Origin: Rhodopirellula islandica
GTDB lineage: Bacteria; Planctomycetota; Planctomycetia; Pirellulales; Pirellulaceae
Direction of reading: 5' to 3'
Assembly: GCF_001027925.1 (NCBI RefSeq)
Contig: NZ_LECT01000050.1
Location: forward strand, 1 to 64,000
Length of the DNA: 64,000 nucleotides
The translations under genes were made by a program, and so were the position numbers. A model generated the notes under the pieces. The model did no database searches, had not been told where the DNA came from, and was given only the letters and a program-made list of their open reading frames with translations. Positions 18,172-61,943 of the stretch are shown here, in pieces. Position 1 is the first letter of the stretch; each line of letters begins with the position of its first letter.

Positions 18172-20043
18172 ATGGCTTCGTTGTTCGTCATTCGAGGACG
18201 TGACCAGGGAAAACACTTCCAGCTCGCTTCAACCGTCACCCGACTGGGACGGGAATCCAGCAACAATGTGCAGTTGCTCGATAACGAGGCCTCACGCAGT
18301 CACGCCGAGATTCGCGGCGATGGAACCGGCCGTCGCTACGAACTGGTCGATTTGGGCAGCAGCAACGGAACGCTGGTCAACAATCGCAAAATCACTCGGC
18401 ACGTTTTGACCAGCGGCGATCGGATTGAGATCGGCTCCACGCTGCTGATCTTCACCGGAACCGGCAACGTGTCCGCCCTCGATGCGGCTCACGGCGTCGA
18501 CATCGTTCGCCAAGTCCGGGGGGGCGACGCCAGCAACATTGTTTCGTCGCTGTCTCGAGAAGGAGTCGTCTCGCCGTACTCACCGGAGGGAGCCTCCTCG
18601 GGCGCTGTCCCCACCCCCAAGCCAACGTCCGCGCCCACGACCCTTCCGCCGCCGATCCCGCCGCCAGTCGAAACGGGGGCGGATCCAGCTCGCAGTGCGG
18701 GAAAGAATCCCTCGGTCGTCACTCCCGAACGAACCGGGCAATTCCATGGGCCACCCGTCATCGGCCGACTCGATGCCGACCGATCGCTCGAAGTGATGTA
18801 CTTAACCGCCATCGCTGTGGGACGGACCGATGACCTGGACGAAGTTCTGGATCGAGTCTTGAAACTGGTCTTCGACTGGGTCGAGGCTGATCGTGGATGC
18901 ATCATGCTTCGCGACCCTGAAACCAAGCGACTGACTCCGGCTGCCAGGTGCGACCGAGACTCGGCGAGCGATGGCCCCCAACCCAAATCGACGTCCAAAT
19001 CCCACGACCGAATTCAGATCAGCCATACGATTTTGGATTACGTGCTGCAACACAAACAGGGCGTTCGCACCAACGACGCACTGGACGACGAACGATTTGA
19101 TTCCGCCGCATCGATTGTGCAAGGCGGCGTTCGCGAAGCCCTCTGCGTTCCTCTGCAAGGTCGCTACGAAATCGTTGGCATGTTGTACGTCGACACTTAC
19201 ACCACGCCGGGAGAACTGGTTCGCAAGGGCGGGGCAACTCGCTTCCATGATGAACACCTCCGGTTGATCACCGCGGTCGGACACCAAGCCGCACTCGCGA
19301 TCGAGGACACGTTCTACTACTCCGCACTCCTGCAAGGCGAACGTCTGGCCGCGATGGGCCAGACGATTGCGACGCTGTCACACCACATCAAGAACATCCT
19401 GCAAGGAGTTCGCGGTGGCAGCTACCTGATCGAATCGGGATTGCAGAAGGATGACACCGAAGCCATCCGTCGTGGTTGGTCCATCGTCGATCGCAACCAA
19501 GAACGGATCAGCAACCTCGTGCTCGACATGCTGACGTTCTCCAAAGAACGTGACCCGGTGCTGCGAGAGGGCAACCTCAACGAGGTCGTTCATGATGTGG
19601 TCGAACTCATGCAGAGCAGGGCAGGGCAGGGCGAAATCGAACTGGTTTCGGAGACGGAAGACACGCTGCCAATTGCAACCTTCGACGGCGAAGCCATCCA
19701 CCGGGCGGTTCTGAACTTGGTCACCAACGCGATTGACGCGGCCACCAAGAGAGTGCTGGTCAAAACGTTCTACGATGCCGCTGAAGGCTGGATCGTTGAC
19801 GTTGAAGACGACGGCGAAGGCGTCCCCAAAGAAGACCGCGAACAAATCTTCTCGTTGTTTGAATCCAAGAAAGGTGCTCGCGGAACTGGGTTGGGCTTGC
19901 CCGTCAGCGCCAAAATTCTTCGCGAACACGGGGGTTCGTTGACCGTTGACGATTCCCCCAGTGGCGGAGCCCGCTTCCGAATGATCTTGCCCGCCACCGG
20001 CACCGACATCAACGAACTTTCGCGAAGCGAAACCCAGGCGTAG
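18172..20043 (+). CDS. FHA-GAF sensor histidine kinase
   Basis: The 623-aa protein has an N-terminal FHA domain (residues ~1-95: TRLGRESSNNVQLLD, ASRSHAEI, LGSSNGTLVN), which binds phosphothreonine. A proline-rich linker follows (~130-190), then a GAF domain (~205-375) and a histidine-kinase module. The phosphoacceptor is in LSHHIKNILQGVRGG; the ATPase boxes are LVTNAIDAA, VEDDGEGVP and GLGLPVSAKI. There is no transmembrane segment, so it is cytoplasmic. No response regulator is adjacent. The FHA domain suggests input from one of the Ser/Thr kinases, which is inference. A doubled KOPS-like motif at 19619-19631 encodes AGQG between the kinase boxes. Confidence 0.9.
   Translation: MASLFVIRGRDQGKHFQLASTVTRLGRESSNNVQLLDNEASRSHAEIRGDGTGRRYELVDLGSSNGTLVNNRKITRHVLTSGDRIEIGSTLLIFTGTGNVSALDAAHGVDIVRQVRGGDASNIVSSLSREGVVSPYSPEGASSGAVPTPKPTSAPTTLPPPIPPPVETGADPARSAGKNPSVVTPERTGQFHGPPVIGRLDADRSLEVMYLTAIAVGRTDDLDEVLDRVLKLVFDWVEADRGCIMLRDPETKRLTPAARCDRDSASDGPQPKSTSKSHDRIQISHTILDYVLQHKQGVRTNDALDDERFDSAASIVQGGVREALCVPLQGRYEIVGMLYVDTYTTPGELVRKGGATRFHDEHLRLITAVGHQAALAIEDTFYYSALLQGERLAAMGQTIATLSHHIKNILQGVRGGSYLIESGLQKDDTEAIRRGWSIVDRNQERISNLVLDMLTFSKERDPVLREGNLNEVVHDVVELMQSRAGQGEIELVSETEDTLPIATFDGEAIHRAVLNLVTNAIDAATKRVLVKTFYDAAEGWIVDVEDDGEGVPKEDREQIFSLFESKKGARGTGLGLPVSAKILREHGGSLTVDDSPSGGARFRMILPATGTDINELSRSETQA
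19619..19631 (+). other. Doubled KOPS-like octamer inside a CDS
   Basis: Two overlapping GGGCAGGG octamers on the + strand encode RAGQGE in the histidine kinase, between the phosphoacceptor helix region and the N box. Confidence 0.6.
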
Positions 20044-22326: not shown

Positions 22327-23298
22327 TCAAGGTTGAGATGGCAGAGATGAAACCGTCTCTCGAACGGTTTGCAAATCAATTTGCAATTGTTGTTTTAAAG
22401 CAGAAGCGTCGGCAAACTTCTGCACGCCCCGCACTTGGCTCACCAAAGTCAGCGTTAGCATTTTGCCATAAAGGTCACCATCGTAGTCGAGCAGGTGAGC
22501 TTCGATTTTGGTTTCCTGGCGTTCGTCAAAGGTCGGATTGGGACCGATGTGAACCGCCGCAGGATGGCAGGTCCCGTCAACGGTTCCCTCCCATGATGCC
22601 AGAGCCGCGTACACGCCGTTTTCTGGAATCAATGTTTCGACGCCGCTCAGGTTCGCGGTGGGGAACCCCAGCGTTCGCCCTCGTTGCTCCCCTGTCGTCA
22701 CGGTTCCGGTCAAACAGTACCGGCTGCCGAGCATTTGATTGGCCAGCGGAAGATCGCCCGATGCGATGGCCTCACGCACCCGTGAGCTGCTGACCAGGCG
22801 TTCGTCGCGAACCGATGGCACCACGATTTCGACGTCGATTTGACGTTCATCCGCCAACTCTTTCAGACGAGTCGTGTTGCCAGCCCGATCGCGTCCGAAG
22901 AAGAAATTCGGCCCTTCGATGATCGCTTTGCCCGACAGTTGTTCCACGATCAATCGCTGAAAGAACTCTTCCGCGGTTTGGTTCAAAAATTCGCGAGTTG
23001 CCTCGCAGACCAGCAAATGATCGATCCCCAACTCGGACATCAGCTCCGCCCGGCGGGGCAGGGTGGTCAGCTTGGGCGGTGCCCCGTGAGGCCGCAGCAC
23101 CGACGCGGGGTGCGGGTCCATCACGATCGCGATCGCTTTGCCGCCAACCCGTTCGGCATGTTGTCGAACCCGGTCCAGCAACGCACGGTGCCCCAGGTGC
23201 ACCCCATCAAAGTTGCCAATGCTGATCGCGCCTCCTTGAAGCGATTGATGCAGGTCGGGGTCGCCCGCGAGGTCGCTCAAGTAAATCAGGGAGGTCAT
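22327..23298 (-). CDS. ribF: Bifunctional riboflavin kinase / FAD synthetase
   Basis: The 323-aa protein converts riboflavin to FMN and FAD. The N-terminal nucleotidyltransferase domain has IGNFDGVHLGHRALL and SSRVREAIASGD (the SSxxR motif). The C-terminal riboflavin kinase domain has GRTLGFPTANL and the NPTFDERQETKIEAHLLD segment with the catalytic Glu. The length is normal for the family. It is directly followed by nrnA. In many bacteria ribF sits next to rbfA/truB/nrnA-type genes, so this pair is a remnant of a common neighbourhood. Confidence 0.95.
   Translation of the reverse strand: MTSLIYLSDLAGDPDLHQSLQGGAISIGNFDGVHLGHRALLDRVRQHAERVGGKAIAIVMDPHPASVLRPHGAPPKLTTLPRRAELMSELGIDHLLVCEATREFLNQTAEEFFQRLIVEQLSGKAIIEGPNFFFGRDRAGNTTRLKELADERQIDVEIVVPSVRDERLVSSSRVREAIASGDLPLANQMLGSRYCLTGTVTTGEQRGRTLGFPTANLSGVETLIPENGVYAALASWEGTVDGTCHPAAVHIGPNPTFDERQETKIEAHLLDYDGDLYGKMLTLTLVSQVRGVQKFADASALKQQLQIDLQTVRETVSSLPSQP
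23056..23063 (+). other. KOPS-like octamer inside ribF
   Basis: A single GGGCAGGG on the + strand, in the nucleotidyltransferase part of ribF. Confidence 0.5.
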
Positions 23299-23305
23299 TC
23301 AATCG

Positions 23306-23318
23306 GGGCAGGGCAGGG
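23306..23318 (+). other. Doubled KOPS-like octamer between nnrD and ribF
   Basis: Two overlapping GGGCAGGG octamers on the + strand, 8 bp upstream of the ribF start. Confidence 0.6.
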
Positions 23319-25611: not shown

Positions 25612-26472
25612 TCACTTTGCTTCGGAAGATTCGTCCGCGGGCGAAGTTTCCGCTTTGGCATTCGCGATTCCACTGGCGATCAAACCGGCCAAGTAGCCGC
25701 CTTTGAAGCCCGCGTCGATGTTGACCACCGCCACATTCGCGGCACACGACGTCAGCATTCCCATCAACGGGGTCAGCCCGGCGAAATTGGCTCCGTACCC
25801 CGTGCTGGCGGGCACGGCGATGACCGGTGTTGCCACGTGACCTGCCAGTGCGGCGGGCAGGGCACCTTCCATCCCCGCGACCACCACAATGGCAGCTGCG
25901 GATCGCAATCGAGGGACCGCGGCCAGCAATCGCTGCGGCCCCGCGACACCGATGTCATCAATCCGTTCGCAGGCAATTCCCATCCAAGCCAAGGTCTCGG
26001 CGGCCTCTTCGGCCACGCCTGCATCCGTGCTGCCAGCGGTGACGACAGCGACGTGAGTCGAGTGACCTTCGATGCCAATCGGCTCCAAACTCTCGTCCCC
26101 ACAGCCGATTCGCAGCGTGTGAGCGGCGGGGTTGTACCGCGTGTTTTCAAACACTCGCCGCAACTGAGCCGCCGCGGTCGCATCAATTCGTGTGATCAAG
26201 CACCCTTGGCCGACTGCGATCTGAATTTGCACGATCTGAGTCATCAGATCGGTTGATTTGCCTTCTCCATAAATCACTTCACCAAAACCACAGCGAGCTT
26301 GGCGGCCCAAATCCACGGTCGCGCCGGGCAAGGTTTGCATCTCGGCGGAGGCCCCCAGTGAACACGCCTGGATCGATTCCACGGCGGATTCCACGTTGGT
26401 TTGCCCCGCTGCGAGGTCCTGCAAAATCTGAAGCAGGGCAGGGGAGGGCGGCTGATTGGAGGGTGGGTTCAT
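25612..26472 (-). CDS. larB: Nickel pincer cofactor biosynthesis protein LarB
   Basis: The 286-aa protein has the LarB layout. A ~100-residue N-terminal domain (VDLGRQARCGFGEVIYGEGKS) is followed by a PurE-like Rossmann domain (VAVVTAGSTDAGVAEEAAETL, IVVVAGMEGALPAALAGHV, VPASTGYGANFAGLTPLMGMLTSCAANV). LarB carboxylates and hydrolyses nicotinic acid adenine dinucleotide in the first step of the cofactor of lactate racemase. larA, larC and larE are not in this window, so the pathway partners must be elsewhere. A KOPS-like pair at 26436-26448 falls in the N-terminal linker (PALLQ). Confidence 0.9.
   Translation of the reverse strand: MNPPSNQPPSPALLQILQDLAAGQTNVESAVESIQACSLGASAEMQTLPGATVDLGRQARCGFGEVIYGEGKSTDLMTQIVQIQIAVGQGCLITRIDATAAAQLRRVFENTRYNPAAHTLRIGCGDESLEPIGIEGHSTHVAVVTAGSTDAGVAEEAAETLAWMGIACERIDDIGVAGPQRLLAAVPRLRSAAAIVVVAGMEGALPAALAGHVATPVIAVPASTGYGANFAGLTPLMGMLTSCAANVAVVNIDAGFKGGYLAGLIASGIANAKAETSPADESSEAK
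25855..25862 (+). other. KOPS-like octamer inside larB
   Basis: A single GGGCAGGG on the + strand. Confidence 0.5.
26436..26448 (+). other. KOPS-like pair GGGCAGGG + GGGGAGGG
   Basis: Two overlapping octamers that both fit GGGNAGGG on the + strand, in the N-terminal linker of larB. Confidence 0.55.
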
Positions 26473-27957: not shown

Positions 27958-28881
27958 TCAACGTTCCGCCGATGCCCATTCGTCCAGCACGTCATCTGGC
28001 AACGGTTCGCCTCCCGCAGGCGAAATCAACGCTTGAACCGTCAGCGGTGGAGTCGTTTCGGGCAAGAAGTACCCATTGCCTTCCACGGTCACGACGCAAA
28101 CACCGCCTTCCGTGGCCCCGCCCAGGCCTTTTCCTGAAGGCGGGTTGATCGCGCCGCCAATCGAAGCCACATCCAGATCGTAGGGTTCCATCCACGACTG
28201 GGTCATTGATTGCATCTGGCCCTCGACCAGCAAGATTGTCTTGGTGGCTCCATCCGTCGCTTGTCTTGGCCCGAGTGGTCCGGTGCTCGGGAACAGCGTT
28301 CCCGAACCGGTCACCAAATGATAGACGGTGCCGGTGCCCCAACCGCTGCTCTCAGGATGCCGGTAGACGGTCGGCGTTTGACTGTAAATCATCGCTTGGT
28401 TTTCCCCTTCATTCCAAGCCACCTCTTTGTCGATCTGATTGAACAGAGCGTCTTCATCCAAGTAGGGCAGGATCGTCACTCGCCACGAGTGCAACTTCCG
28501 CCCGGCCCCGTCCGTTGTGTACGGGGCAGGGTAGACCCCATGGTCAGTGGCGTACGCATTCAGAGCGGAAGCGATCTTTTCCATGTTCTTGATGCTGCTC
28601 AGCCGTTGACGGCCCGTGCGAATTTTCGTGGCCGTCCGACTGCCAACCTGAATCGCAGCGATCAGCCCGGCCCCGATGAGCAACAACGCCAATCCGGCGG
28701 CAACAAACCAGATGGCCGACTTTTTTCGCTTCCCAGGCCGATTCGCTTGCGATCGCACTCCAGCGAAATCAGGCATCGTGATTTCACGCCCGCAAACGAC
28801 GCAGTCGCCCGTGCGTCCGCTGAACTCATCTTCCACCTCAGTTTGCGACTGGCAGTGTGGGCAAGTGAACAGAAACGTCAT
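27958..28881 (-). CDS. DUF1559-like protein with N-terminal zinc ribbon
   Basis: The 307-aa protein begins with a zinc ribbon ([25 protein letters not shown]). It then has a basic linker, one transmembrane helix ([24 protein letters not shown]) and an extracytoplasmic part. That part shows the DUF1559 pattern: [23 protein letters not shown], then [21 protein letters not shown] and YRHPESSG. Ordinary DUF1559 proteins of planctomycetes begin with a type IV pilin-like signal; here a zinc ribbon plus helix replaces it. The start has GGAAAGGA at correct spacing. The function is unknown. Confidence 0.8.
28524..28531 (+). other. KOPS-like octamer inside the DUF1559-like gene
   Basis: A single GGGCAGGG on the + strand. 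Confidence 0.5.
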
Positions 28882-29458: not shown

Positions 29459-30373
29459 TCAACGTCGGGGCAGGGCAGTGGGCCAATGGGGGCGAGCCAC
29501 CTGCTGTCCCATTCCTGGCTGAGTCACGTCCGGCTCAATCGCCCCCGGCTGAGCCTGAGACGGCCATCCAAAGTTCGACGGTGATTCCTGTGGCGAAGTG
29601 ATGCGGGGCTGCCACTGCGGCGGCTCGCGAGACTCCCAGGGCGCAAACAACGACGGACTGGTGTAGTCCGGATTGATCTCGTCCTGACTGGGAACGGCGT
29701 AGCGATCATTGTCCATTCGGACGCGTTGCCGCAACCGATCCAGAATCTCATGGTCCCCCCAGGCCAAGTACATGAACAACCCGAGTTGGCCCCAAACAAA
29801 AATGTTGGCGAGCGGGCTGCTTCCGAAAAACTTGAGCGCCGTGCCGAATGACTTCTTCACCCGCATGGATCCCCGGCTGAAATCCAACGCCCAGATTTCG
29901 TCCAAAATCAAATGGGTCATGAACCCAACAATCACGGCACTTGACTTGTAGACTCGAATCGCTTCGCTGGGACAAGGCATCAGCATGTACGCGATCAGCC
30001 CCGCGACCAGAGCCGCCGGAATGCTGTGCCACATCCCACGGTGAACGGTGAATTTCCGGAACCCTTCCACCGCGACGAACCGAATCGCGACATACACAAT
30101 CATGGCCGCCAGCGCCATCGCTTCGTGGGTCAGCCCCATGTCACGCCATCGATCGATCATCAGCATCGGCACGACCGCGGACAGAAACATGGTCGTTTCA
30201 CGAAGCGGCACGCCTGAGTCGCTGTCCAAATCCGGCAACATCCCCGACACACTGCACAGCCCGCCGGCCAACAGCGCACTCTCCATCGACATCCCTTGAT
30301 CGACCACGCCCCAATATCCATAGGCGCACCCGACAACGGTGCTCGTCGAGATGTGGGTTTTGAAACCAGCCAA
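29459..30373 (-). CDS. YdjM/DUF457-type membrane-bound metal-dependent hydrolase
   Basis: The ~304-aa protein starts AGFKTHISTSTVVGCAYG, the typical entry of the YdjM/DUF457 family with its early His. GMLPDLDSDSG follows, then HRGMWHSIPAALVAGLIAY and GFMTHLILDEIWALDF, giving the His/Asp metal-ligand set. Several transmembrane segments lie between residues ~10 and 220, and a proline-rich tail of ~70 residues ends the chain. The frame runs to 30673, but the extra 100 residues look non-coding, so I take the TTG at 30373 that gives MAGFKTH. Annotation as a hydrolase is by family, not proven. KOPS-like sites lie at both ends of the gene. Confidence 0.75.
   Translation of the reverse strand: MAGFKTHISTSTVVGCAYGYWGVVDQGMSMESALLAGGLCSVSGMLPDLDSDSGVPLRETTMFLSAVVPMLMIDRWRDMGLTHEAMALAAMIVYVAIRFVAVEGFRKFTVHRGMWHSIPAALVAGLIAYMLMPCPSEAIRVYKSSAVIVGFMTHLILDEIWALDFSRGSMRVKKSFGTALKFFGSSPLANIFVWGQLGLFMYLAWGDHEILDRLRQRVRMDNDRYAVPSQDEINPDYTSPSLFAPWESREPPQWQPRITSPQESPSNFGWPSQAQPGAIEPDVTQPGMGQQVARPHWPTALPRR
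29468..29475 (+). other. KOPS-like octamer at the 3' end of the DUF457 gene
   Basis: A single GGGCAGGG on the + strand. Confidence 0.5.
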
Positions 30374-30400: not shown

Positions 30401-30413
30401 GGGCAGGGAAGGG
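30401..30413 (+). other. KOPS-like pair GGGCAGGG + GGGAAGGG, last + strand site before dif
   Basis: Two overlapping octamers fitting GGGNAGGG on the + strand, about 1.25 kb left of the predicted dif. Confidence 0.55.
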
Positions 30414-30602
30414 CGGTCCGAACAAATTTCGAGCACGACCGCCCACCACGCCGCGAGGGCGGAGCAGGGCGGTGGCGCACCGAGAACCATTGCCGTTACC
30501 AAATCCGAGCTCCCGCCCGCCACCGGAAAAATTCGCCACGCCAACCGAGCCTCCGATCTCGGCGATCGCTCCGAAAACCACCGCCAAAAAAATTGCTGTT
30601 CG

Positions 30603-30610
30603 CCCTGCCC
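30603..30610 (-). other. KOPS-like octamer in the opposite orientation
   Basis: CCCTGCCC on the + strand, that is GGGCAGGG on the - strand. It is the only site left of the predicted dif that points away from it. Confidence 0.5.
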
Positions 30611-30671
30611 CTTCGCTTTTGCTACAAGCGTCAAAACGGTTCGGATCCGTTGCAGCGATGAAAGTGCGCTC

Positions 30672-31484
30672 ATGCAGACTTACGACATTCTGATGACAAT
30701 CATCTTGGTCGGCGCAACCCTCTTGGGCGCGATCCGTGGATTTGCATGGCAACTCGCCTCAATCGCTTCCATCGTTGTCAGCTACGCCGTCGCGTATCAC
30801 TATCGCGAACCGTTCAGCCAGAACATTCATGCAGCGGCGCCGTGGAATCAATTCCTGGCAATGTTCATCCTGTTCGTCGGAACCTCTTTCGTGATCTGGG
30901 TCGCACTGCGGATGGTCAGCGGAATGATCGACCGAATGCGTCTGAAAGAATTTGACCGTCAAGTCGGAGCCCTGTTTGGACTCGCCAAAGGAGCCCTGCT
31001 GTGCACGATCATCACGCTCTTCGCGGTCACGCTGTTTGGTGAACGAATTCAACACGCAATTGTCGCCAGCGAGAGCGGCCGACTGATCGCCCGCGTGCTC
31101 GCCGAGTCCAACTCGATCATGCCGCCGGAACTGCGGAGCGTCGTCCAACCGTACCTGGAACAATTTGGGGAGGAGCAACTCGGCGACCAACCGGATTCAG
31201 CCGAACCTTGGCTCTCGCAATCCCAGACGCCAGCGAACATCAATCCGAATGTCGACCCAAATTGGCTCCAGCCGAACGCTCAACCAGCGAACCACTTCCG
31301 ACCACAAAACGGCTTCCAACAAGCCCAGCAAAATGCGACTCCCAATGGCCTGAGATCGCAGTCATCATTTGGCGGTTTCGGTGGCACAACCACACCGGCC
31401 ATCGACTCGGCCGCGGGCCCGCAACAGCAGGCTCCGACATGGCGGCAATCCGCAACGCCGCAGTGGCAAACGCCGCGTCGTTGA
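30672..31484 (+). CDS. cvpA: CvpA-family membrane protein
   Basis: The 270-aa protein has about four N-terminal membrane helices in the CvpA (colicin V production) pattern: YDILMTIILVGATLLGAIRGF, the AWQLASIASIVVSYAVAY helix, FLAMFILFVGTSFVIWVAL, and FDRQVGALFGLAKGALLCTIITLFAV with its Gly-rich turn. The last ~100 residues are rich in Gln, Asn and Pro and are probably disordered. CvpA proteins are inner-membrane proteins of poorly defined role. The ATG at 30672 is the first start. This is the last gene before the dif-like site and is transcribed towards it. Confidence 0.85.
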   Translation: MQTYDILMTIILVGATLLGAIRGFAWQLASIASIVVSYAVAYHYREPFSQNIHAAAPWNQFLAMFILFVGTSFVIWVALRMVSGMIDRMRLKEFDRQVGALFGLAKGALLCTIITLFAVTLFGERIQHAIVASESGRLIARVLAESNSIMPPELRSVVQPYLEQFGEEQLGDQPDSAEPWLSQSQTPANINPNVDPNWLQPNAQPANHFRPQNGFQQAQQNATPNGLRSQSSFGGFGGTTTPAIDSAAGPQQQAPTWRQSATPQWQTPRR

Positions 31485-31662
31485 TCGCCCGAAGTGACGA
31501 CCGACCGGCCAGCGAAAGCGATCGCGATCAAGCAACCGCGACGATCGCGAATGCTCGGGGCGGGGCATGCCCGAGATCGCCGGGGCCCCAGCCATCTCCA
31601 ACGTCACGAAACCAAACCCCAGATGCAGAAAACGCCTGAAACACGGGTTTTACACACCTCGA

Positions 31663-31690
31663 ATACAACATAAGGGGCATTATCGGACGT
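31663..31690. other. Predicted dif (XerC/XerD recombination) site
   Basis: The 28-bp site has the 11-6-11 layout ATACAACATAA / GGGGCA / TTATCGGACGT. Read on the - strand it gives ATAATG in the XerC half and TTATGTT in the XerD half, both at the same positions as in the bacterial dif consensus RNTKCGCATAATG... Altogether 19 of 28 positions fit that consensus. The rest of the 328-bp gap 31485-31812 contains no gene. The site lies between convergent cvpA and accA, near the point where KOPS-like octamers reverse strand. Binding by XerC/D is inferred. Confidence 0.75.
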
Positions 31691-31812
31691 TGCGGGGCGG
31701 TCGAAATCCACCCTGATTCCCCGTGCCGATCACATCTGCGTCCGCCCGTCCCAGCCAACATCCCGTCACCGAGACGTTCGCTCGGCGACCGAAACTTCCG
31801 CTCGCGTCGGCC

Positions 31813-32772
31813 TCAGTTCTCTTCCAAGAAGACGCCGAGCCGACGGAACTTTTCGTAGCGTTGCTGGAGCATCTGATCGACCGGCATCGCTTCCAATTCA
31901 GACAACTGACGCGACAGATAAGTCTTCATCCGAGTCGCCATTTGATGGTGGTCACGATGAGCGCCACCGAGCGGTTCTTCGAGCACATCATCGACGACGC
32001 CCAAACGCAACAAATGGTCGCTCGTGAACCGCAGCGCCGCGGCCGCTTTGGGTGCGTGTTCGTGACTCTTCCACAGAATCCCGGCACAGCCTTCCGGGCT
32101 GATGACGCTGTAGTAAGCGTGCTGCAAAACCGCGACTCGATCGCCGACGCCGATTCCGAGAGCACCACCGGATCCACCTTCGCCGATCACGACGCAGATC
32201 ACCGGGGTCTTCAGGTCGCTCATCATGAACATGCTCTCTGCGATCACTTGAGCCTGGCCGCGTTCCTCGGCACCGATCCCTGGATAGGCTCCGGGCGTGT
32301 CAATAAAACAAATGACCGGCAAGCGATATTTCTCGGCCATTTTCATTTTCACCATGGCCTTGCGATAACCTTCCGGATGAGCGCAACCAAAGTGACAAGC
32401 CGCACGTTCCTTGTAAGTCCTTCCTTTTTGGTGACCGATCACCATCACCTTGAATCGATCCAACTTCGCGAAACCGGACAGCATCGCGCGGTCGTCGCCA
32501 AAGTGTTTGTCACCGTGCAATTCGACAAATTCGTCAAACGCTAAGTTGAGGTAATCACGCGTGTAAGGCCGGTTCTTATGACGAGCCACTTGGACCGTTT
32601 GCCACGGATCCAGCGATGAGTACGTCTCTTTCAATTTGGCAACACGAGCCAAACGCAACGATCGAATCGCTGAGTCAATTTCTTCACTGCGATCGGTGTT
32701 CCGTTCTAGCGAAGCGATTTGCTCCTCCAGATCCGCGATCTCGTTTTCAAATTCCAATCCGGGTCCGGCCAT
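31813..32772 (-). CDS. accA: Acetyl-CoA carboxylase carboxyltransferase subunit alpha
   Basis: The 319-aa subunit pairs with AccD to transfer carboxyl from biotin to acetyl-CoA, the committed step of fatty acid synthesis. It shows the N-terminal coiled helix (LEEQIASLERNTD), RPYTRDYLNLAFDEFVELHGD, ICFIDTPGAYPGIGAEERGQ, EGGSGGALGIGVGDRVAVLQHAYYSVISPEGCAGILW. The length is normal. It lies 3 bp behind the kinase gene on the same strand, so the two form a transcription unit. accD is not in the window. Confidence 0.97.
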   Translation of the reverse strand: MAGPGLEFENEIADLEEQIASLERNTDRSEEIDSAIRSLRLARVAKLKETYSSLDPWQTVQVARHKNRPYTRDYLNLAFDEFVELHGDKHFGDDRAMLSGFAKLDRFKVMVIGHQKGRTYKERAACHFGCAHPEGYRKAMVKMKMAEKYRLPVICFIDTPGAYPGIGAEERGQAQVIAESMFMMSDLKTPVICVVIGEGGSGGALGIGVGDRVAVLQHAYYSVISPEGCAGILWKSHEHAPKAAAALRFTSDHLLRLGVVDDVLEEPLGGAHRDHHQMATRMKTYLSRQLSELEAMPVDQMLQQRYEKFRRLGVFLEEN

Positions 32773-32775
32773 CGC

Positions 32776-33720
32776 TCAGTTTTCCTCTTCTTCGTCGCTG
32801 GTAGGTTCGGGGCGTTTGATCATGTCCTCAGCGGATTTCATGGAACCGTCTTCGTCGAAGACGGTCACCTCCGGCCGACGAGGACGCTTCCGCCAAACTT
32901 CGATGTTGCGGAAGACTTTCAAGAACTCCCACACCGATTCCGGCCGGGCGTCGGGCGACTTCGCCATCATGCTTTTGACCAAGTCCGCAAAGTCCTTGGT
33001 CACGTTGTCGTTGTAGACAATCGGGCTGGGGATCGAAGCGGACAGGTGCTTCGACAACAAATCGTTGGGAGTCTGCCCGGTGTAAGGCGGCTTGCCTGTG
33101 CAGGCTTCGAAGAGCACACATCCAAACGAATAGATGTCGCTGCGTTCGTCACACAACTTCCCGCGAATTTGTTCGGGAGGCATGTAACTGCGTGTGCCTT
33201 GGATGTTCTTGGCCTTGTAGAACATCTTGCTCAAACCGGTTCGCTTCCGTTCGGTGATCGTGAAGTCAATCAGCTTGGTCTCACCGGTATGCGAAACCAG
33301 ATAATTGTCTGGTTTGATATCGCGGTGAATCCAGTTCTTCGTGTGCATGTAGTAGAGGCCTTCGGCGGCTTGCTCGATGACTTTGTCGAGCATGTAGGCC
33401 AGGGAGTCAGGCCCCTTGCGAAGCGCCTGCTTCATGTTCATTTCACTGAACAATTCCAGCACCAAGAATGGCCGCCCGTTCTCGACGCGGTGATCGATCA
33501 TTTTGATGATCCGCGGGCTGTTGAGCGTTTTGCCGACGTTGTATTCGTGCTTGAGCGACGCCAGCTCGGCTTTGTCGTTCGACATCGACTGCCGCAAAAT
33601 CTTGAGCGCGTATCGCTTCTGGTCCCCTTCATCAATCGCTTCCCAAACTTCAGCGGTCGATCCGATGCGGATCAAACGAGCGAGTCGATAAGGGCCTAGA
33701 AAGTCGCGTGATTTGGACAT
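32776..33720 (-). CDS. Ser/Thr protein kinase with degenerate motifs
   Basis: The ~314-aa soluble kinase has a full catalytic domain: YALKILRQS (Lys), the HEYNVGKTL helix, WIHRDIKPDNYLV (HRD and KxxN), GTRSYMPPEQIRG (activation end), and SDIYSFGCVLFEACTGKPPY. Two key motifs are off-consensus: the Gly loop reads IGSTAEVW instead of GxGxxG, and the DFG is DFT (LIDFTITE). The catalytic Asp and the metal Asp are kept, so activity is still possible. There is no transmembrane or sensor domain; the tail is acidic. The start MSKSRDF at 33720 is chosen over the open frame to 33840. It precedes accA by 3 bp. Confidence 0.85.
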   Translation of the reverse strand: MSKSRDFLGPYRLARLIRIGSTAEVWEAIDEGDQKRYALKILRQSMSNDKAELASLKHEYNVGKTLNSPRIIKMIDHRVENGRPFLVLELFSEMNMKQALRKGPDSLAYMLDKVIEQAAEGLYYMHTKNWIHRDIKPDNYLVSHTGETKLIDFTITERKRTGLSKMFYKAKNIQGTRSYMPPEQIRGKLCDERSDIYSFGCVLFEACTGKPPYTGQTPNDLLSKHLSASIPSPIVYNDNVTKDFADLVKSMMAKSPDARPESVWEFLKVFRNIEVWRKRPRRPEVTVFDEDGSMKSAEDMIKRPEPTSDEEEEN

Positions 33721-33991
33721 CGAGCGGCTGGGGCATTGTCGGAAACGGGACCATCGAGTTGAACGATCAAAACGATTTTGTGGCTTGGCATGATAGTCCA
33801 ACGGGCCCCACAGCCGAAAGACGTGTGCCGGACACCCCAAGCCCCCCGGGTGGCAGTCGAGATCCCGCCCGGAGCGAAGCCGTCAGCGCATGCGAGGCCA
33901 AGAAAATCTGCACCGCCCTGCCCTTCCCCGCCTTTTCACTTCGAATTCAGCGGGCGGCAACCCCCAACAGAAGGCCGATCACTGGGCGGCA
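33721..33991. other. Gap between the kinase and the MITE copy
   Basis: No gene is supported here. The frame upstream of the kinase start continues into it but is low quality. It contains - strand KOPS-like octamers at 33917-33929 and is otherwise featureless. The promoter for the kinase-accA unit should lie near its left end. Confidence 0.4.
33917..33929 (-). other. KOPS-like pair, first site right of dif
   Basis: CCCTGCCC and CCCTTCCC overlap on the + strand, so two GGGNAGGG octamers lie on the - strand and point back towards dif. Confidence 0.55.
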
Positions 33992-34115: not shown

Positions 34116-35380
34116 GTTCGCAATTCCGAATACAGCTCGCGAATTCGGCGGGTCATCGTTTCGTGCCGGAAGACATCGGTGAATCGAGCCTGGCCCTCCC
34201 GCCCCATCCGCTGACGAAGTTCGGCGTCGCCAACCAAGCGGATCATCCGATCCGCCAAGTCATCGACCTGCCCTGCCCCAACCAGATATCCCGTTTGGTC
34301 GTCGATCACGACTTCACGAGCCCCGTCGATGTCGTAGCTGATTGCCGGACGCCCGGCGATCAGGGCCTGCGGAAGAGCTCGTGCCAAACCTTCTCGGTAA
34401 GAAGCGTGAACCAAGATGTCCATCGCACCGATCATGGCGGGCACCTCCGAAGGAGGCACCAAACCGGTGAAAATGAAGTGCTCTTTCAATCCCAGTGACT
34501 CAATCTGCTGTTCGAGTTCAGCACGCAGGATGCCGTCTCCGACCAGCAGAAACCGCACGTTGGGATAGCGGTCCGCGACGCGTTTGGCGGCGGAAATCAG
34601 ATCGACGTGGCCTTTCAGATGAAACAGGCGAGCGATCTTGCCCACCACCACATGTTCCGCTCCCAAACCATACTTCTGTCGCACCGTTTCTCGATGATCC
34701 ACCGCGTGAACGAACGGGTCGACATTCATGCCACTGTGAATCGTCACAAATTTCTGGCGTGGAGCGACACCCGCATCCACCATCAAGTCCGTCATCGCAT
34801 CGGCGACCGAGATCAGTTTGTGACAACGTGATGCGGCCCAGCGTTCACAACCCACGAAGAAATCATGAGCCGGCCTGGACTGGTAATCATGAAAGGGCGC
34901 GCCATGGACCGTGTGAACGACCACCGGGCGTTTGCCAGTGGACCTTCGCTTCAGGCCCCATCCCACATGCCTGCCAAGCAAGCCGCCTTTGGCACTGTGT
35001 GTGTGAACGACATCGGGATCAAACGCCAACAACGTTCGCCGCAAATCACGAGCGGCACGCCAATCGTTGACAGGATGAATCGCACGCCGCAAGGAATCGA
35101 GCAGCTCGATTGGCAGCCCGTCCAGTTCAAACCGCCCTGCCCTGCCCTCTGCATCAACCCCAGGCCGGTCAACCCCAGGCCGGTCAACACCAGACCGGTC
35201 AACGGCGACCGCACCAGAGCGAACGCGAGCGGCCAACAAGTCACCTTCAGGACCAACGGCGGGCCCCGTCACGAGCAAGACCTCGTCCCCATGAAGGTGA
35301 ACGAGGTCCTGGCAGTTGTGCAGCGTGTTCTCTTGCGCACCGCCAATGATCATTCGGGTGATCACATGAGCGATACGCAT
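34100..35380 (-). CDS. GT4-family glycosyltransferase
   Basis: The 426-aa protein has the GT-B fold of family 4. The N-terminal acceptor domain starts MRIAHVITRMIIGGAQENT and includes DVVHTHSAKGGLLGR. The C-terminal donor domain has VGKIARLFHLKGHVDLI, FLLVGDGILRAELEQQI, FTGLVPPSEVPAMI and YREGLARALPQALIAGRP. It should transfer a sugar from a nucleotide donor in envelope glycan synthesis. Odd points: a 15-bp tandem repeat (35156-35200) encodes VDRPG units after residue 60, and the last codons with the TAA come from a MITE end. It ends up 8 bp downstream of fliA on the same strand. Confidence 0.9.
   Translation of the reverse strand: MRIAHVITRMIIGGAQENTLHNCQDLVHLHGDEVLLVTGPAVGPEGDLLAARVRSGAVAVDRSGVDRPGVDRPGVDAEGRAGRFELDGLPIELLDSLRRAIHPVNDWRAARDLRRTLLAFDPDVVHTHSAKGGLLGRHVGWGLKRRSTGKRPVVVHTVHGAPFHDYQSRPAHDFFVGCERWAASRCHKLISVADAMTDLMVDAGVAPRQKFVTIHSGMNVDPFVHAVDHRETVRQKYGLGAEHVVVGKIARLFHLKGHVDLISAAKRVADRYPNVRFLLVGDGILRAELEQQIESLGLKEHFIFTGLVPPSEVPAMIGAMDILVHASYREGLARALPQALIAGRPAISYDIDGAREVVIDDQTGYLVGAGQVDDLADRMIRLVGDAELRQRMGREGQARFTDVFRHETMTRRIRELYSELRTVCHS
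34271..34278 (-). other. KOPS-like octamer inside the GT4 gene
   Basis: CCCTGCCC on the + strand, pointing left towards dif. Confidence 0.5.
35135..35147 (-). other. Doubled KOPS-like octamer inside the GT4 gene
   Basis: Two overlapping octamers on the - strand encode GRAGR directly after the 15-bp tandem repeat. Confidence 0.6.
35156..35200 (-). repeat. 15-bp in-frame tandem repeat (3 units)
   Basis: The unit is AACCCCAGGCCGGTC on the + strand; two units are identical and the third has two changes. It encodes VDRxGVDRPGVDRPG-type sequence in a loop of the glycosyltransferase. Unit-number changes would keep the frame. Confidence 0.85.
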
Positions 35381-36776: not shown

Positions 36777-38114
36777 TCAGGCCGCCTCGCCATAGGGCAA
36801 GGATTCGTACCCGTCCATTGTCTCAAAACCCATCTCCCCCAATCCAGCGGTAGGCATCTGTGGCAATAACTGTGCCACCAAGCCAGAGGCATCTGCCACG
36901 GCGATGTCATCCGGAACCTGCTGACCGTTGGTCAAATAGCTCAGTGGCGGCGCGACGCCACGATCACGCCCCGTCAATGCAGCTAACACAGCGGCAGTGC
37001 AAGGTGTCTCGTCCAGTTTCGTCAGCGTGACCGCGTTGGCTCGCACCGGGGCGAAACCTTCCAAACTCGTTCGGATGCTTTCACCCGAACTGGTCGCACT
37101 GAGAACCAAGTGTGTTTCGTCAGGGTGCGCCGCTCGCAAGAACTCGGAGAGCTGTTCGATCCGGGCGTCACTGCGGGGACTGCGTCCAGCCGTGTCGATC
37201 AAGACCAGGTCCACATCCCCCAACGCACTGAGCGCCGTTTCCATCTGTTCGGGTTTTTCAACGACCTGCATCGGCAGGTCCATGATCTCGGCGTAAGCCT
37301 TGAGTTGCTGGACCGCCGCGATTCGGTACGTGTCGATGGTCAGCAATCCCACGCGTCGGCGAGCTTCAATCCGAAACCCGGCCGCCAACTTGGCAACCGT
37401 CGTCGTCTTGCCAACGCCCGTCGGGCCGACCAACGCGACAATGTGCCGGTCACCGGGCTGAGTTCGAATCGGACCGCAAAGGTTCAACTCCCTCGCGACA
37501 GCGCGTTGCAAATGCTCCATCCAACGCTGGTCGTTCTGAACCGCGGACTCCGAATCGGCGATTCCGGCGGCGAAGCTGGACGCCGAAGCCATCCAACGGC
37601 GAGCCGTGGACTCCTCCACCCCAGCCTGCAACAACCGCAACGACAAGGAATCGGCCGGAGTCAGCTCCGAGGAGGAATACCCCGAACCATAAAAACCGCC
37701 CTGCCCTGCCTCGGATCCAGTCACGGAACCCGAGCGAAGTTGATGGGCTGCGTCAAATTTTTGATAGGTCGCTTCCGCTGGATTTCGACCGCCAGAGCCC
37801 CCTGGGATGCCAGTGGGTGAGGCACCGTAACCGGACGACGCTGCCACTGAATTCACAGAGCGAACATCCGCAGGCTGCAACGGCTCCTCCGCATAATTCG
37901 CGAGAACAGGATTGCCTGCGTTGTCGTTCATGGCCCCTTCAACAGGACCACCATGCAACCCCGCGGTGACTTCCACGTGAGTCCGGCCAAGCCAGCCCAT
38001 CCAGCCATTGCGGACCTGCCGCGTATGAAGCACGGAAGCCTCCGGGCCCATTTGATTTCGGATGTCGGCAAGAGCCGCTTGCAGATTCGCTGCTCGAAAA
38101 GTTCTGATATGCAT
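36777..38114 (-). CDS. flhF: Flagellar biosynthesis SRP-like GTPase FlhF
   Basis: The ~445-aa protein has the FlhF N-terminus MHIRTFRAANLQAALADIRNQMG, a low-complexity B region, an N-domain (SLRLLQAGVEESTARRWM) and an SRP54-type GTPase domain. Its G motifs are VALVGPTGVGKTTTVAKLA, LLTIDTYRIAAVQQL, VLIDTAGRSPRSD and TKLDETPC. FlhF places and numbers polar flagella. The ATG at 38114 overlaps the flhA stop by one base (TGATG), which implies coupled translation. A KOPS-like octamer at 37699-37706 encodes AGQGG in the B linker. Confidence 0.95.
   Translation of the reverse strand: MHIRTFRAANLQAALADIRNQMGPEASVLHTRQVRNGWMGWLGRTHVEVTAGLHGGPVEGAMNDNAGNPVLANYAEEPLQPADVRSVNSVAASSGYGASPTGIPGGSGGRNPAEATYQKFDAAHQLRSGSVTGSEAGQGGFYGSGYSSSELTPADSLSLRLLQAGVEESTARRWMASASSFAAGIADSESAVQNDQRWMEHLQRAVARELNLCGPIRTQPGDRHIVALVGPTGVGKTTTVAKLAAGFRIEARRRVGLLTIDTYRIAAVQQLKAYAEIMDLPMQVVEKPEQMETALSALGDVDLVLIDTAGRSPRSDARIEQLSEFLRAAHPDETHLVLSATSSGESIRTSLEGFAPVRANAVTLTKLDETPCTAAVLAALTGRDRGVAPPLSYLTNGQQVPDDIAVADASGLVAQLLPQMPTAGLGEMGFETMDGYESLPYGEAA
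37699..37706 (-). other. KOPS-like octamer inside flhF
   Basis: CCCTGCCC on the + strand, immediately followed by a near second unit (CCCTGCCT). Confidence 0.5.
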
Positions 38115-41328: not shown

Positions 41329-43554
41329 TCAGAAACCAGGCTCGCTTGCCTCTGTTTTCCAGCGAACCGCCAATCCGGGTGCCAGTTCGGGCGATCGGTC
41401 TCGGGAATGAAAACGCGTGGGATCGTCCAACCAGCCTTCCTGCGACAACACCAAGGTCACGACTCCCGGCGACGAACGCAGAAAATCATCCAACGCCTTG
41501 GAAATGAAACGAATGCCGTCCGGTTGGTCCTTCAATCCTTCCCCCGAATTATTGAATTCCAGTTCCCCCAGCGGCACCAAACCCTCCATGCCCTCGCCCA
41601 CTGGGCTGGTCTCAAACGTCAGGTGGCCTTCGCCGGATTCTTTCCAATCCAACGCTCCCGTCCCGTCTGGCGTCGGCAAATCCGACGGCCAACCGTGAAC
41701 GGTGATTCGCCCCGCACCGGGGTGTGAATCGGGAGCCATGCTCAACAACAACGCCGAACGATCGATCCGCTCCAGCACGGAATTCACGGAATCGGATTCC
41801 ATTCCTGAAGGCGGATCCAATTGCGAAAGGTCAAACCTCAGGAACGAGATCGCCCACACGTTGCCTTGTTCTTCGCCGGCACGATGCACGACCAGAGCGG
41901 GTTGTTTGCCAAAGTCCTCGGTGCTGCCGCGACTCACAAACGTGTCCGCTCCCTTTCCTGCTCGTGTGCGAATCGTGCCGAAACCCAACAGGTCTCCTGA
42001 TCGCAAGTTCTCGATGACTTCGAATTGGGATGCGATCGAATTGACACTGGCACCCGCAGGCGATTGCAATTCAAAGATCACGTCAAATCGTTCCTGCGCC
42101 ATGTTGGTGGTCAAAAACTGAATCTCGATCGACTGCGTCTCGCCAGGTGCCGGCAACTGCCTTGGCGAGAACGATCGCGGGAACGCGGGAGCTTTGCGTT
42201 TGAGCTGGCCTTCCTGTTGCAGATAGGTCGTGATGCGTGCGACCTGGCCGGCTTGCGAATACCGGACTCGCGGATCGGTCTCGGGCGACGCTGCCTGGTT
42301 GGTCAATTGAAGCCGGAACCGAGCCATCTGCCCCACCGGAACTTCGGGGTCGGAAATCACCTTGCCGGTCAGCTTCAATGCTCCCAATCCAGCGGCCAGC
42401 ACAGCAGGAGCCTTCTCCGCAACCGACGCCACAGCCGTTTGTTTCTCCGGCGCGGCATCGCGAAGCGCCCACCACACACCACCGCCGATCAACGCGACGG
42501 CAGCCAGACCGCCAACCATGAGCAGCGACTTCGAGTTGCCGCCAACGGACTTGACCGCGGCATTCGAATTCGAATCGCCGGAGTCAGACACTCCACTGGA
42601 TGCCCCGGCACCAGGGTCGATTTGAATTGCCAATTCGGCCCGTTGAGCGTTTTGCATCTCGTCGGAAACGGACCGCAATGCTTTGCGAAAATGTCCCGCG
42701 GTCTCGTATCGCTGCCCGGGTTCCTTGGACAACAACCTCATGATCAGCCGCTCAAGCGGTTCGGGCACTTCGACCGGAACACCGTCACGCTGTCGCTGCG
42801 ATAGCGGCAACGGTTCGCGGCACAGAATATTGACGAGCTGGGTCGGGGTGTTGGGCGCCAACAACGGCACTTTGCCAGCAAACATTTCATACATCACCAC
42901 GCCGAGTGAGTAGAGGTCGGTGCGTTCGTCGACCGTTTCATTGCGTGCCTGTTCAGGCGACAAGTACCCCGGCGTCCCAACAACGCTGTCGCCTTTGGCC
43001 AACCCTTGCACCGCCGATCCGCCGACCGCCAATCCGAAATCCAGAATTTTGACCCGTTCGCTGGGTGACTGAATCCACAAATTCGCGGGTTTGATATCCC
43101 GGTGAATGATCCCTCGGTCATGAGCCGCTTCCAGCCCCAAGGCGACTTGATCGGCGATCGAGATGATCTCTTCCGATGTGAATCGACGACCGGATTGCAG
43201 CAGCTGTTCCAGCGTTGCTCCCTGCAGCAATTCCATTGCCAAGAACGGCGTGCCATTGCGTTGACCGACTTCGAACAGCGTCGCCACATTGTCGTGGTGA
43301 ACGGCGGCCATCGAGCGGGCTTCTTCGACGATCCGCTTGCGACTGTTCGGCGATTTCGCGAACCGCTGGTTCATCACCTTGAGCGCCACGGTGCGTTGCA
43401 ACCGCGTGTCCTGGGCGCGATAGACGTGCCCCATGCCGCCGCTGCCCAACAACTCAATCACCCGGTAAGGGCCCAGTCGGCCCAATTCGTCCCCGGATTC
43501 TGGCGGATCCAGAAACTCGGGCAGGGAATCGGGTTCGGACGAGGAATCAGTCAT
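41329..43554 (-). CDS. Transmembrane Ser/Thr protein kinase with DNRLRE-like outer domain
   Basis: The ~741-aa protein has a canonical kinase domain at about residues 30-290: LLGSGGMGHVYRAQD, VALKVM, IIHRDIKPANLWI, ILDFGLAVGG and GTPGYLSPEQARNE. A single membrane helix (SLLMVGGLAAVALIGGGVWWAL, ~345-366) follows. The ~375-residue outer part has a segment (AGKGADTFVSRGSTEDFGKQPALVV, then ISFLRFDLSQL) similar to DNRLRE domains; this is my reading of the pattern. The start MTDSSSEPD at 43554 is chosen over the frame to 43689. It reads all usual catalytic residues and should be active. Confidence 0.88.
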   Translation of the reverse strand: MTDSSSEPDSLPEFLDPPESGDELGRLGPYRVIELLGSGGMGHVYRAQDTRLQRTVALKVMNQRFAKSPNSRKRIVEEARSMAAVHHDNVATLFEVGQRNGTPFLAMELLQGATLEQLLQSGRRFTSEEIISIADQVALGLEAAHDRGIIHRDIKPANLWIQSPSERVKILDFGLAVGGSAVQGLAKGDSVVGTPGYLSPEQARNETVDERTDLYSLGVVMYEMFAGKVPLLAPNTPTQLVNILCREPLPLSQRQRDGVPVEVPEPLERLIMRLLSKEPGQRYETAGHFRKALRSVSDEMQNAQRAELAIQIDPGAGASSGVSDSGDSNSNAAVKSVGGNSKSLLMVGGLAAVALIGGGVWWALRDAAPEKQTAVASVAEKAPAVLAAGLGALKLTGKVISDPEVPVGQMARFRLQLTNQAASPETDPRVRYSQAGQVARITTYLQQEGQLKRKAPAFPRSFSPRQLPAPGETQSIEIQFLTTNMAQERFDVIFELQSPAGASVNSIASQFEVIENLRSGDLLGFGTIRTRAGKGADTFVSRGSTEDFGKQPALVVHRAGEEQGNVWAISFLRFDLSQLDPPSGMESDSVNSVLERIDRSALLLSMAPDSHPGAGRITVHGWPSDLPTPDGTGALDWKESGEGHLTFETSPVGEGMEGLVPLGELEFNNSGEGLKDQPDGIRFISKALDDFLRSSPGVVTLVLSQEGWLDDPTRFHSRDRSPELAPGLAVRWKTEASEPGF
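43519..43526 (+). other. KOPS-like octamer, the single + strand site right of dif
   Basis: GGGCAGGG on the + strand in the kinase gene; the only octamer found right of dif that points away from it. Confidence 0.5.
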
Positions 43555-43758: not shown

Positions 43759-43766
43759 CCCTGCCC
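43759..43766 (-). other. KOPS-like octamer between the kinase and yhaM-like genes
   Basis: CCCTGCCC on the + strand, followed by a near unit CCCTGCTC. The gap 43555-43806 has no supported gene. Confidence 0.5.
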
Positions 43767-46152: not shown

Positions 46153-48114
46153 TTACTTCAACAGGAATCCGTTGAGGTTCCAACCGTCTTTTGTGGTTTC
46201 GACGAAACCGAACGCGTTGCGGAAGTACTTCTCGACCTCACTGAACGCGGGCCATTTGCTCACGTTGAGACGCTCGATGGGCTCTTCCACTTCGGGCTCA
46301 TCGCCTTCAAACATGCGACGAACCAACGAAGCCATGACCGAATCGCTGTTCTTCAGTTCGCCTTGGCGTTGCAATTCGTACTTCGCTCGCAGCGATTGAC
46401 GCAGACGAACCACGCGTTGGAAGGCCACTTCATCGGCTCCCATTTCTCGGGTCAGTTTCAACAGGTCTTTGACTTCATCCAAGTCGGCTAACTTCTCGCC
46501 TTCCCCTGTTTGCATTCGCTTCGCCACATCGACCAACCATTCCACATGGCTGCTGAAGACCAGGTGTGCCTTCTTGGATCCCTTGCCGGCAGGCACCATC
46601 GCGATGGCCCAGGTGTTCAAGAGTGGGGTCTGTTGTTCATCGATCTCTTCCTCGAAGCCGAGGTCATCGAAGAACTCGTCATCCAGTTCGTCGTCGCCAC
46701 TGCCGTGTTTGACTTGCCAAATTTCAACGCCGGGGACCGTGTCGACTTTGAAAACATCGGGCTCGACTTCCATCGCTTTGCGAACCGCGGTTCCAATTGC
46801 ATTCGCATCGCGAACTTCAATGGCGACCAAGACGCGTTCCGAATCCACCGTCGCGGGCAGTGTGTTGTCGGTCAACAGCAACAGGTGTTCCGAGAGATTT
46901 GGCAACACGTTCTTTTCGATGTCGATCTGCGGTCCTTCTTCGTCGTCTCGGATGCCTTCGATGCTGGGCCGAAAGATCTCATTGTCAAAGGCTTCGTCGA
47001 CCAAGGTCTCGAGCGCCCAAAACGCTTCTTCGATCTTCCAGTTCACCCGTGTGAGGCTGGCCGTGTTGGCGGGAACCCAAGCGGGGATTTCTTCCAGTGG
47101 CGTGTTGGGAAACTGCAAGATCCGAGCAGCCAAACGGTAGCGACTGGATTCTTCGGTGACGGGAGGAGCGTGCACATAACCTCGGTGCAGCAAGTCAAAC
47201 TTGCCCTGCCCCACGACGGCAATTCCGCCAGCAGCTTGCACGGCGTCAAAACCTTGGTTCTCGAGCAAATTCAAAATACGAACTTTGTTGCCGCGGTCGA
47301 CCTTGGCCACGTCGCGAATGATCCGGCCCATCGTCAGCGGTTTGACGAACCATTCGACTTGTGAACCTTCGGTTTCGATTTCGCTGCGAGAGAGAGCCTG
47401 TTTCCAAACGGTTCGCAACAACGGTGCTTTGTCCAAGGAATCTTCCCGGCCATCGTTTGAAATCGCGTCCAAGACTTCAAACACCACCGAATCGCGATCC
47501 GACGCGATCACACGATCCTGAGTCAGCGAAACCACCACCTGTTCGATCTTGAGCTGCCCGGGGCGAGTCTTGGGACTGTACACGCGAACGGTTTCGCCCG
47601 CGTGAGTGACATCGGCTCGAGTCGCGCCATCAGCCTTCAGATCTTGGTCCACTCGCTCCAAGACGGCTTCCGCTCCTGCGTGCTTCCCTCGAATGTCAGC
47701 CACGACACAAACCGAGGAGGGACGGCGGTTGTCATTTTCAAAGGGCAACCACACCGCGATCACTTCTCCGGTCGCAATTTCGTACAACTCTTTGGGACGC
47801 ACACCAACCTTGTCGCCCAATTTTTCCCACACAGCGCCTTGGCTGCCAAAATTGGCATCGATCAGCGGCTTCATCGCAGGATCATCCGTGATGCCCGACA
47901 ACGTTGTTTGCTGCCACGAATTGCACAGCACGGTCAGATCGGGAATCCGAACCACGCCCGCGGCCGTGTCGGGCAACAATTTCAATGCTGTCATCAAGAC
48001 CGGCTTCGCGGCCCCCTGCCCTGCCCCGGCTGCTTTTGCAGGCACGGCGTCTTGAGCGAACGCATGCGATCCAAACAAACTCAACGCCAGAACGGCTGTC
48101 AATGCATGGAGCAT
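46153..48114 (-). CDS. Large secreted protein of unknown function
   Basis: The ~653-aa product has a signal peptide (LHALTAVLALSLFGSHAFAQ). The mature chain begins with an AGAGQG linker, made in part by a doubled KOPS-like motif, and then a domain starting LKLLPDTAAGVVRIPDLTVLC. Its repeated alpha-beta pattern (VVADIRGKHAGAEAVLERVDQDL, VVSLTQDRVIASDRDSVVFEVLDAI) resembles DUF3352-type secreted proteins, but I cannot confirm the family. There is one cysteine-poor acidic stretch (DDELDDEFFDDLGFEEEIDE). The frame is open to 48216; the added residues look like upstream non-coding DNA, so I use 48114. Confidence 0.7.
   Translation of the reverse strand: MLHALTAVLALSLFGSHAFAQDAVPAKAAGAGQGAAKPVLMTALKLLPDTAAGVVRIPDLTVLCNSWQQTTLSGITDDPAMKPLIDANFGSQGAVWEKLGDKVGVRPKELYEIATGEVIAVWLPFENDNRRPSSVCVVADIRGKHAGAEAVLERVDQDLKADGATRADVTHAGETVRVYSPKTRPGQLKIEQVVVSLTQDRVIASDRDSVVFEVLDAISNDGREDSLDKAPLLRTVWKQALSRSEIETEGSQVEWFVKPLTMGRIIRDVAKVDRGNKVRILNLLENQGFDAVQAAGGIAVVGQGKFDLLHRGYVHAPPVTEESSRYRLAARILQFPNTPLEEIPAWVPANTASLTRVNWKIEEAFWALETLVDEAFDNEIFRPSIEGIRDDEEGPQIDIEKNVLPNLSEHLLLLTDNTLPATVDSERVLVAIEVRDANAIGTAVRKAMEVEPDVFKVDTVPGVEIWQVKHGSGDDELDDEFFDDLGFEEEIDEQQTPLLNTWAIAMVPAGKGSKKAHLVFSSHVEWLVDVAKRMQTGEGEKLADLDEVKDLLKLTREMGADEVAFQRVVRLRQSLRAKYELQRQGELKNSDSVMASLVRRMFEGDEPEVEEPIERLNVSKWPAFSEVEKYFRNAFGFVETTKDGWNLNGFLLK
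47204..47211 (-). other. KOPS-like octamer in the secreted protein gene
   Basis: CCCTGCCC on the + strand. Confidence 0.5.
48014..48026 (-). other. Doubled KOPS-like octamer in the secreted protein gene
   Basis: Two overlapping octamers on the - strand encode AGAGQGAA directly after the signal peptide cleavage region. Confidence 0.6.
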
Positions 48115-61930: not shown

Positions 61931-61943
61931 CCCTGCCCTGCCC
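61931..61943 (-). other. Doubled KOPS-like octamer upstream of guaA
   Basis: Two overlapping octamers on the - strand in the 245-bp region between the cytochrome gene and guaA; CCCTTCCC at 61982-61989 has the same orientation. Confidence 0.6.

Follow-up and report, generated by a model that had tools for sequence, protein, structure and literature searches.

A 64,000-nucleotide stretch of the Rhodopirellula islandica genome (NCBI RefSeq assembly GCF_001027925.1, contig NZ_LECT01000050.1, positions 1 to 64,000 of the forward strand; hereafter the window) carries a CvpA-like gene (Colicin_V, PF02674; 30672-31484, + strand) and accA (ACCA, PF03255; 31813-32772, − strand), both named by family match. 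The gap between them is occupied by a 28-bp candidate dif site, ACGTCCGATAATGCCCCTTATGTTGTAT (31663-31690, − strand), recognized by its sequence layout and conservation, and copies of the octamer GGGCAGGG face this site from both sides. Here, we report that these octamers are, judging from sequence, very probably FtsK-orienting polar sequences (KOPS) and that an FtsK/KOPS-XerCD/dif system very probably operates in Planctomycetota.

Exact matches to GGGCAGGG numbered 28 on the two strands of the window, against 2.07 expected (standard deviation, 1.35; maximum, 7 in 100 shuffles), the largest excess among all window 8-mers when the split was made at dif. Fourteen lay on the + strand, up to 30401, and 12 on the − strand, from 33916, and 26/28 faced dif (31663; two-sided binomial P = 3e-6), or 19/21 events once overlapping octamers were merged (P = 2e-4). 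Density fell with distance from dif, from 0.80/kb within 5 kb to 0.60/kb at 5 to 10 kb, 0.45/kb at 10 to 20 kb, and 0.05 to 0.23/kb farther out. The whole genome (7.43 Mb) held 355 copies against 264 of the reversed octamer, and the excess is therefore concentrated near dif. An earlier note on this DNA had given the octamer positions and strands, all of which held except 33917, whose true start is 33916 (−). Our recount agreed with its tally of 26/28 facing one interval (30.4 to 33.9 kb), placing the meeting point at ~31.66 kb, and returned the same two exceptions; its statements that density is highest at the flip and that the octamer fits the E. coli KOPS consensus, GGGNAGGG, within which GGGCAGGG falls, were likewise borne out.

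Left of dif, on the + strand, predicted KOPS facing dif lie as two overlapping octamers at 405-417, 14919-14931, 19619-19631, and 23306-23318 and as single octamers at 23056-23063, 25855-25862, 26436-26443, 28524-28531, 29468-29475, and 30401-30408, the last being the closest on that side. On the right, all on the − strand, the closest is at 33916-33923, followed by single octamers at 34271-34278, 37699-37706, 43759-43766, 47204-47211, and 55726-55733 and by two overlapping octamers each at 35135-35147, 48014-48026, and 61931-61943. Mis-oriented octamers stand at 30603-30610 (−; 1.05 kb left of dif) and 43519-43526 (+; 11.9 kb right of dif). A turning point at 30409-30602, as drawn from the octamers alone, was rejected because dif lies at 31663 and the octamer at 30603 is the odd one. 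The degenerate GGGNAGGG was also rejected as the motif, since widening lowered the polarity (44:6 in the R. islandica genome, G000, versus 32:2 for GGGCAGGG). No tRNA genes were found in the window.

The earlier note had further proposed that the octamers point at dif, and a 28-bp dif was found by its own sequence inside the claimed interval, the core having been searched without use of the octamer. On the minus strand it reads ACGTCCGATAA / TGCCCC / TTATGTTGTAT, that is, two 11-bp arms around a 6-bp center, with the XerC-type arm at 31680-31690, the center at 31674-31679, and the XerD-type arm at 31663-31673 (arms named by analogy with the E. coli layout). It was the only match in the window at ≤3 mismatches (0.02 expected). 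The core occurred without mismatch exactly once per genome in 13/13 same-genus genomes; genome G001 has an additional dif-like site with 2 mismatches. A mismatch-free core was also present in 3/24 other family members (G018, G023, and G025), while weak dif-like matches (2 mismatches) were seen in G015, G014, and G041. Across an alignment of 16 genomes, 27/28 columns were invariant, the exception being C/T in the center; these genomes were chosen by the dif core, which builds in the invariance of the core, so that only the five outer bases and the flanking sequence are newly informative. Adjoining the XerC-type arm is a ACCGCCCCGCA box (31691-31701, − strand), identical in 12/16 genomes and differing at a single base in the other 4, which sits in an otherwise poorly aligning gap; it was not conserved in the more distant dif flanks of the ten flip genomes described below.

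Polarity around dif was shared by relatives. Over the dif-flanking stretches of five genomes, GGGCAGGG faced dif at 253:8 (261 sites), made up of 32:2 on the window's contig, C50 (126 kb), 75:1 in G002 (400 kb), 72:3 in G018 (400 kb), 34:0 in G023 (200 kb), and 40:2 in G004 (200 kb). In each of the five it was the most strand-biased of all 8-mers, and among its 56 anagrams (itself counted) it was the commonest, occurring 261 times where the others had a median of 43. The fourth base was mostly C: the C form gave 253:8, compared with 25:14 for A, 51:23 for G, and 17:5 for T. Overlapping (GGGCA)n arrays accounted for 7/27 runs in C50, 13/32 in G002, 12/43 in G018, 4/30 in G023, and 10/31 in G004.

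For whole chromosomes we used the doubled octamer, the 12-mer GGCAGGGCAGGG, which is rare enough for genome-wide listing. R. islandica has 25 copies against 2 of the reversed control, and its contigs with more than one copy all show a single orientation, apart from the window's contig, which alone flips. The earlier note had proposed that a single change of polarity here and one at the origin would support its claim, and in eight single-contig chromosomes 142/143 copies of the doubled octamer fitted a division of the chromosome at dif and at the point opposite it, the antipode (138/139 after overlapping copies were merged), positions in relatives being taken from among the matches listed. By genome, agreement was 28/28 in G002, 17/17 in G004, 16/16 in G018, 8/8 in G023, 43/43 in G031, 16/17 in G042, 11/11 in G059, and 3/3 in G052; G031, G042, and G059 are less independent because dif was sought near the flip there. 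The total leaves out the single-contig G041, which has 2 copies and lacks a sure dif, as well as seven multi-contig genomes (G025, G030, G035, G188, G262, G331, and G341). On the dif contig of genomes outside this total, 18/18 copies agreed in G025, 6/6 in G331, and 11/12 in G008.

The association was also approached from either partner. Ten genomes were chosen because, among the matches listed, the octamer changed orientation within one contig, four from the same order (G031, G042, G059, and G331) and six from elsewhere in the phylum (G192, G235, G103, G207, G177, and G226). A dif-like site lay within the flip interval in 8/10, that of G177 being weak (5 mismatches); in G059 it lay 0.9 kb outside the interval, and in G226 no dif at ≤5 mismatches was found in the 30 kb examined. 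Ten shuffles each of three flip contigs gave best scores of ≥5 mismatches, and the G177 site on its own therefore proves nothing. In the reverse direction, 75 loci were retrieved by accA alone (Rhodopirellula, Rubripirellula, Stieleria, Roseiconus, and others), and 66/75 had a dif-like site (≤3 mismatches), 63 of these with no mismatch at the fixed positions. Octamers at these sites were 228 facing to 14 away (228/242). At least six of the contigs were shared with the first set (G003, G006, G007, G009, G010, and G012), so the accA set is not wholly independent. In the 66/75 loci dif was no more than ~2 kb from accA, a stable neighborhood and a useful landmark. By its accA protein, the window was closest, among the named organisms in the collection searched, to Rhodopirellula europaea 6C (99%), although the window's own record may not be included in that comparison. 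Across the phylum, the pattern ACGTCCGATAANNNNNNTTATGTT (≤2 mismatches) was present in 183/294 genomes, with the reversed control nonzero in 20. Two genomes of family f52 had 22 (G343) and 5 (G317) dif-like matches rather than one, which perhaps represent Xer-using mobile elements or dif modules.

The proteins of such a system are encoded in the same genome. FtsK of R. islandica (contig C14) has 4TM, alpha, motor, and gamma domains; the gamma domain (PF09397, C14:115950-116132) matches solved FtsK gamma chains (e.g., 2ve8 and 2j5o) and was detected in 56/60 relatives, and the gamma motif reads GYGRAAR in the 14 planctomycete gamma sequences listed, from 13 genomes. XerC (C31; 352 bits) and XerD (C15; 373.7 bits) both scored above the curated cutoff. 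A search for FtsZ gave no match in 10/10 genomes, whereas the control search detected FtsZ in 13/14. One GGGCAGGG lies within ftsK itself (G000:C14:115797-115804), ~150 bases before the gamma-domain codons. The octamer sites and their polarity, dif and its conservation, and the genes for FtsK, XerC, and XerD are all observed directly in the sequence.

E. coli offers the closest known counterpart, sharing the octamer, its flip at dif, the 11-6-11 layout of dif, FtsK gamma, XerC, and XerD with the planctomycete system. Run on E. coli MG1655 within 100 kb of dif, the same script gave 13:0 for GGGCAGGG and 20:0 for GGGNAGGG. Planctomycetes differ in that the fourth octamer base is mostly C, that overlapping (GGGCA)n arrays occur (0/13 runs in E. 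coli against the C50 fraction given above), that density within 10 kb of dif is 0.3 to 1.2/kb (5-kb bins, five genomes) versus 0.1/kb in E. coli, that the skew does not flip at dif, that FtsZ was not found (10 genomes), and that the gamma motif is GYGRAAR rather than GYNRAAR. The differences in fourth base, arrays, and density are a matter of degree, and the kind of system is already known; what is notable is how far it reaches, together with the overlap of KOPS in arrays and the skew displacement described below. The guide sequence of Bacillus also differs from the planctomycete octamer. In Bacillus (SpoIIIE recognition sequence [SRS]/SpoIIIE-SftA) and Lactococcus (KOPS/XerS-difSL), according to excerpts of a review (PMC5357621), an oriented motif steers a motor of the FtsK family toward a Xer site, which is the likeness to the system proposed here; Lactococcus differs in its A-rich heptamers and single recombinase. 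The dif survey of Kono et al. in 2011 resembles our search in that a 28-bp single-copy Xer site was sought by sequence, and, in the excerpts of that paper, dif was predicted for 0/1 planctomycete (PMC3025954); we now give dif for 13 genomes of the genus and, on the basis of the pattern, for 183/294 of the phylum. Among the titles and abstract openings listed, with subscription literature mostly outside the search, no paper on KOPS or dif in planctomycetes was recognized.

Several observations weigh against reading the octamers as KOPS that converge on dif. On the side of dif that carries cvpA, a wrong-way octamer stands ~1.0 to 1.2 kb away in 6/16 genomes (G000, G002, G004, G005, G007, and G011), and single mis-oriented octamers occur in several of the flip genomes (G192, G235, and G059). 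The octamer is sparse at long distances from dif, with no polarity in G002 (3:3 in 260 kb sampled >0.5 Mb away) and a ratio of 17:1 in G004 (400 kb sampled >0.3 Mb away). Among multi-contig genomes, G030 has 3/4 doubled octamers in agreement and one in disagreement on the dif contig, and in G262 two neighbors on a single contig diverge. No dif was found in 9/75 accA loci, the phylum pattern is absent from 111/294 genomes, and FtsK gamma was not found in 4/60 relatives. Finally, the sign of GC skew is the same on either side of dif, which thus does not lie close to a GC-skew shift; such proximity is described as a correlate of dif in excerpts of PMC3025954.

Within the window, GC skew was negative in 60/63 bins (2 kb, overlapping) and showed no shift at dif; in the same orientation it was negative in every 20-kb bin across 400 kb around dif in G002 and G018 and over ~200 kb in G023 and G004, while the window's own contig had one positive bin, 60 to 80 kb right of dif. 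If the octamer simply reflected strand composition, with a leading strand rich in G, its pointing would be only apparent, and the one-mismatch variants and G-rich anagrams that also lean toward dif (GGGGAGGG, 51:23; CAGGGGGG, 20:1) fit that idea. The skew nevertheless keeps its sign on both sides of dif while the octamer flips, which means that skew does not account for the flip, and strand composition was rejected as the cause of the polarity; moreover, the commonest nonshifted anagram, GGCGGGGA, was balanced at 51:55, and a 5th-order Markov model predicted 9.0 copies (mean of 5) in C50 against 34 observed, leaving this explanation with almost no credence. Only slightly less improbable is that the octamer serves recombination in the manner of Chi or belongs to some other class of polar motif with no link to FtsK. 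Chi-type motifs are strand-biased as well, and FtsK binding is proposed here by analogy, but the exact fit to GGGNAGGG, the flip at a Xer site, the density peak <10 kb from dif, and the presence of the FtsK gamma domain argue for KOPS instead.

Whether the interval is also the replication terminus proper, where forks meet, is a separate matter and compatible with the octamers being KOPS; we regard the chances as evenly balanced. A dnaA-like gene lies 7 kb (G002) and 25 kb (G004) from the antipode of dif, and a second reversal of the doubled octamer falls in an interval containing the antipode in G031 and in one 0.2 to 0.7 Mb from it in G042. On the other side, in G018 and G023 no dnaA-like gene lay closer than 1 Mb to the antipode, and the dnaA-like matches (two each in G000, G002, G004, and G018; three in G023) all fell below the curated DnaA cutoff; an antipodal dnaA-like gene was accordingly dropped as general evidence of symmetry, as it holds for G002 and G004 and fails for G018 and G023. 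In 20-kb samples, skew in G004 was negative from −2.4 to +0.9 Mb of dif and positive from +1.2 to +2.7 Mb, with further sign changes nearer the antipode, and G002 was a rough mirror image, changing sign between −1.0 and −0.5 Mb. The sign change thus lies ~0.5 to 1.2 Mb from dif in both, with the skew and KOPS axes displaced from each other. The earlier note had called the interval the replication terminus and had proposed plotting the strand bias together with GC skew: the convergence of KOPS on dif is strongly supported, a meeting of forks here finds no support in the skew, and the distant sign change in G002 and G004 matches in part what the note had named as counting against its claim (a polarity switch and a GC-skew extreme elsewhere). 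In excerpts of PMC13342612, dif is a segregation end point that need not coincide with the meeting of forks. It is possible, and we put it forward tentatively, that in these FtsZ-less bacteria the dif/KOPS axis is displaced ~0.5 to 1.2 Mb from the strand-asymmetry axis, with the guide signal concentrated around dif, partly as (GGGCA)n arrays; if so, KOPS would be maintained by an FtsK required for bringing DNA into the bud, regardless of the site at which replication finishes.

With the octamers taken as KOPS, FtsK binding, DNA pumping, and XerCD recombination are proposed by extension from E. coli, as covered in excerpts of a review (PMC5357621). FtsK, most likely at the bud neck, would load through its gamma domain on GGGCAGGG in one orientation, so that the motor would pump each chromosome arm toward the point where the octamer orientations meet. 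There it would reach the 28-bp dif bound by XerC and XerD and activate XerD, and chromosome dimers would be resolved prior to bud separation. The dense overlapping sites by dif may, speculatively, raise the rate of FtsK loading. The site of convergence is probably the place where joined chromosomes are separated.

The 2011 survey had failed to predict dif in this phylum, a gap that these data close, and dif beside accA provides a landmark for draft genomes in which GC skew would mislead. They suggest that bacteria lacking FtsZ still sort their chromosomes by the widespread FtsK-Xer machinery. In budding Planctopirus limnophila, ftsK could not be deleted, whereas ftsI, ftsW, and mreB could (excerpts of PMC6952346), and a genome-wide screen found ftsK essential (excerpts of PMC10632474). 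The KOPS/dif map would give this essential FtsK a defined track and target, and its role thereby becomes directly testable.

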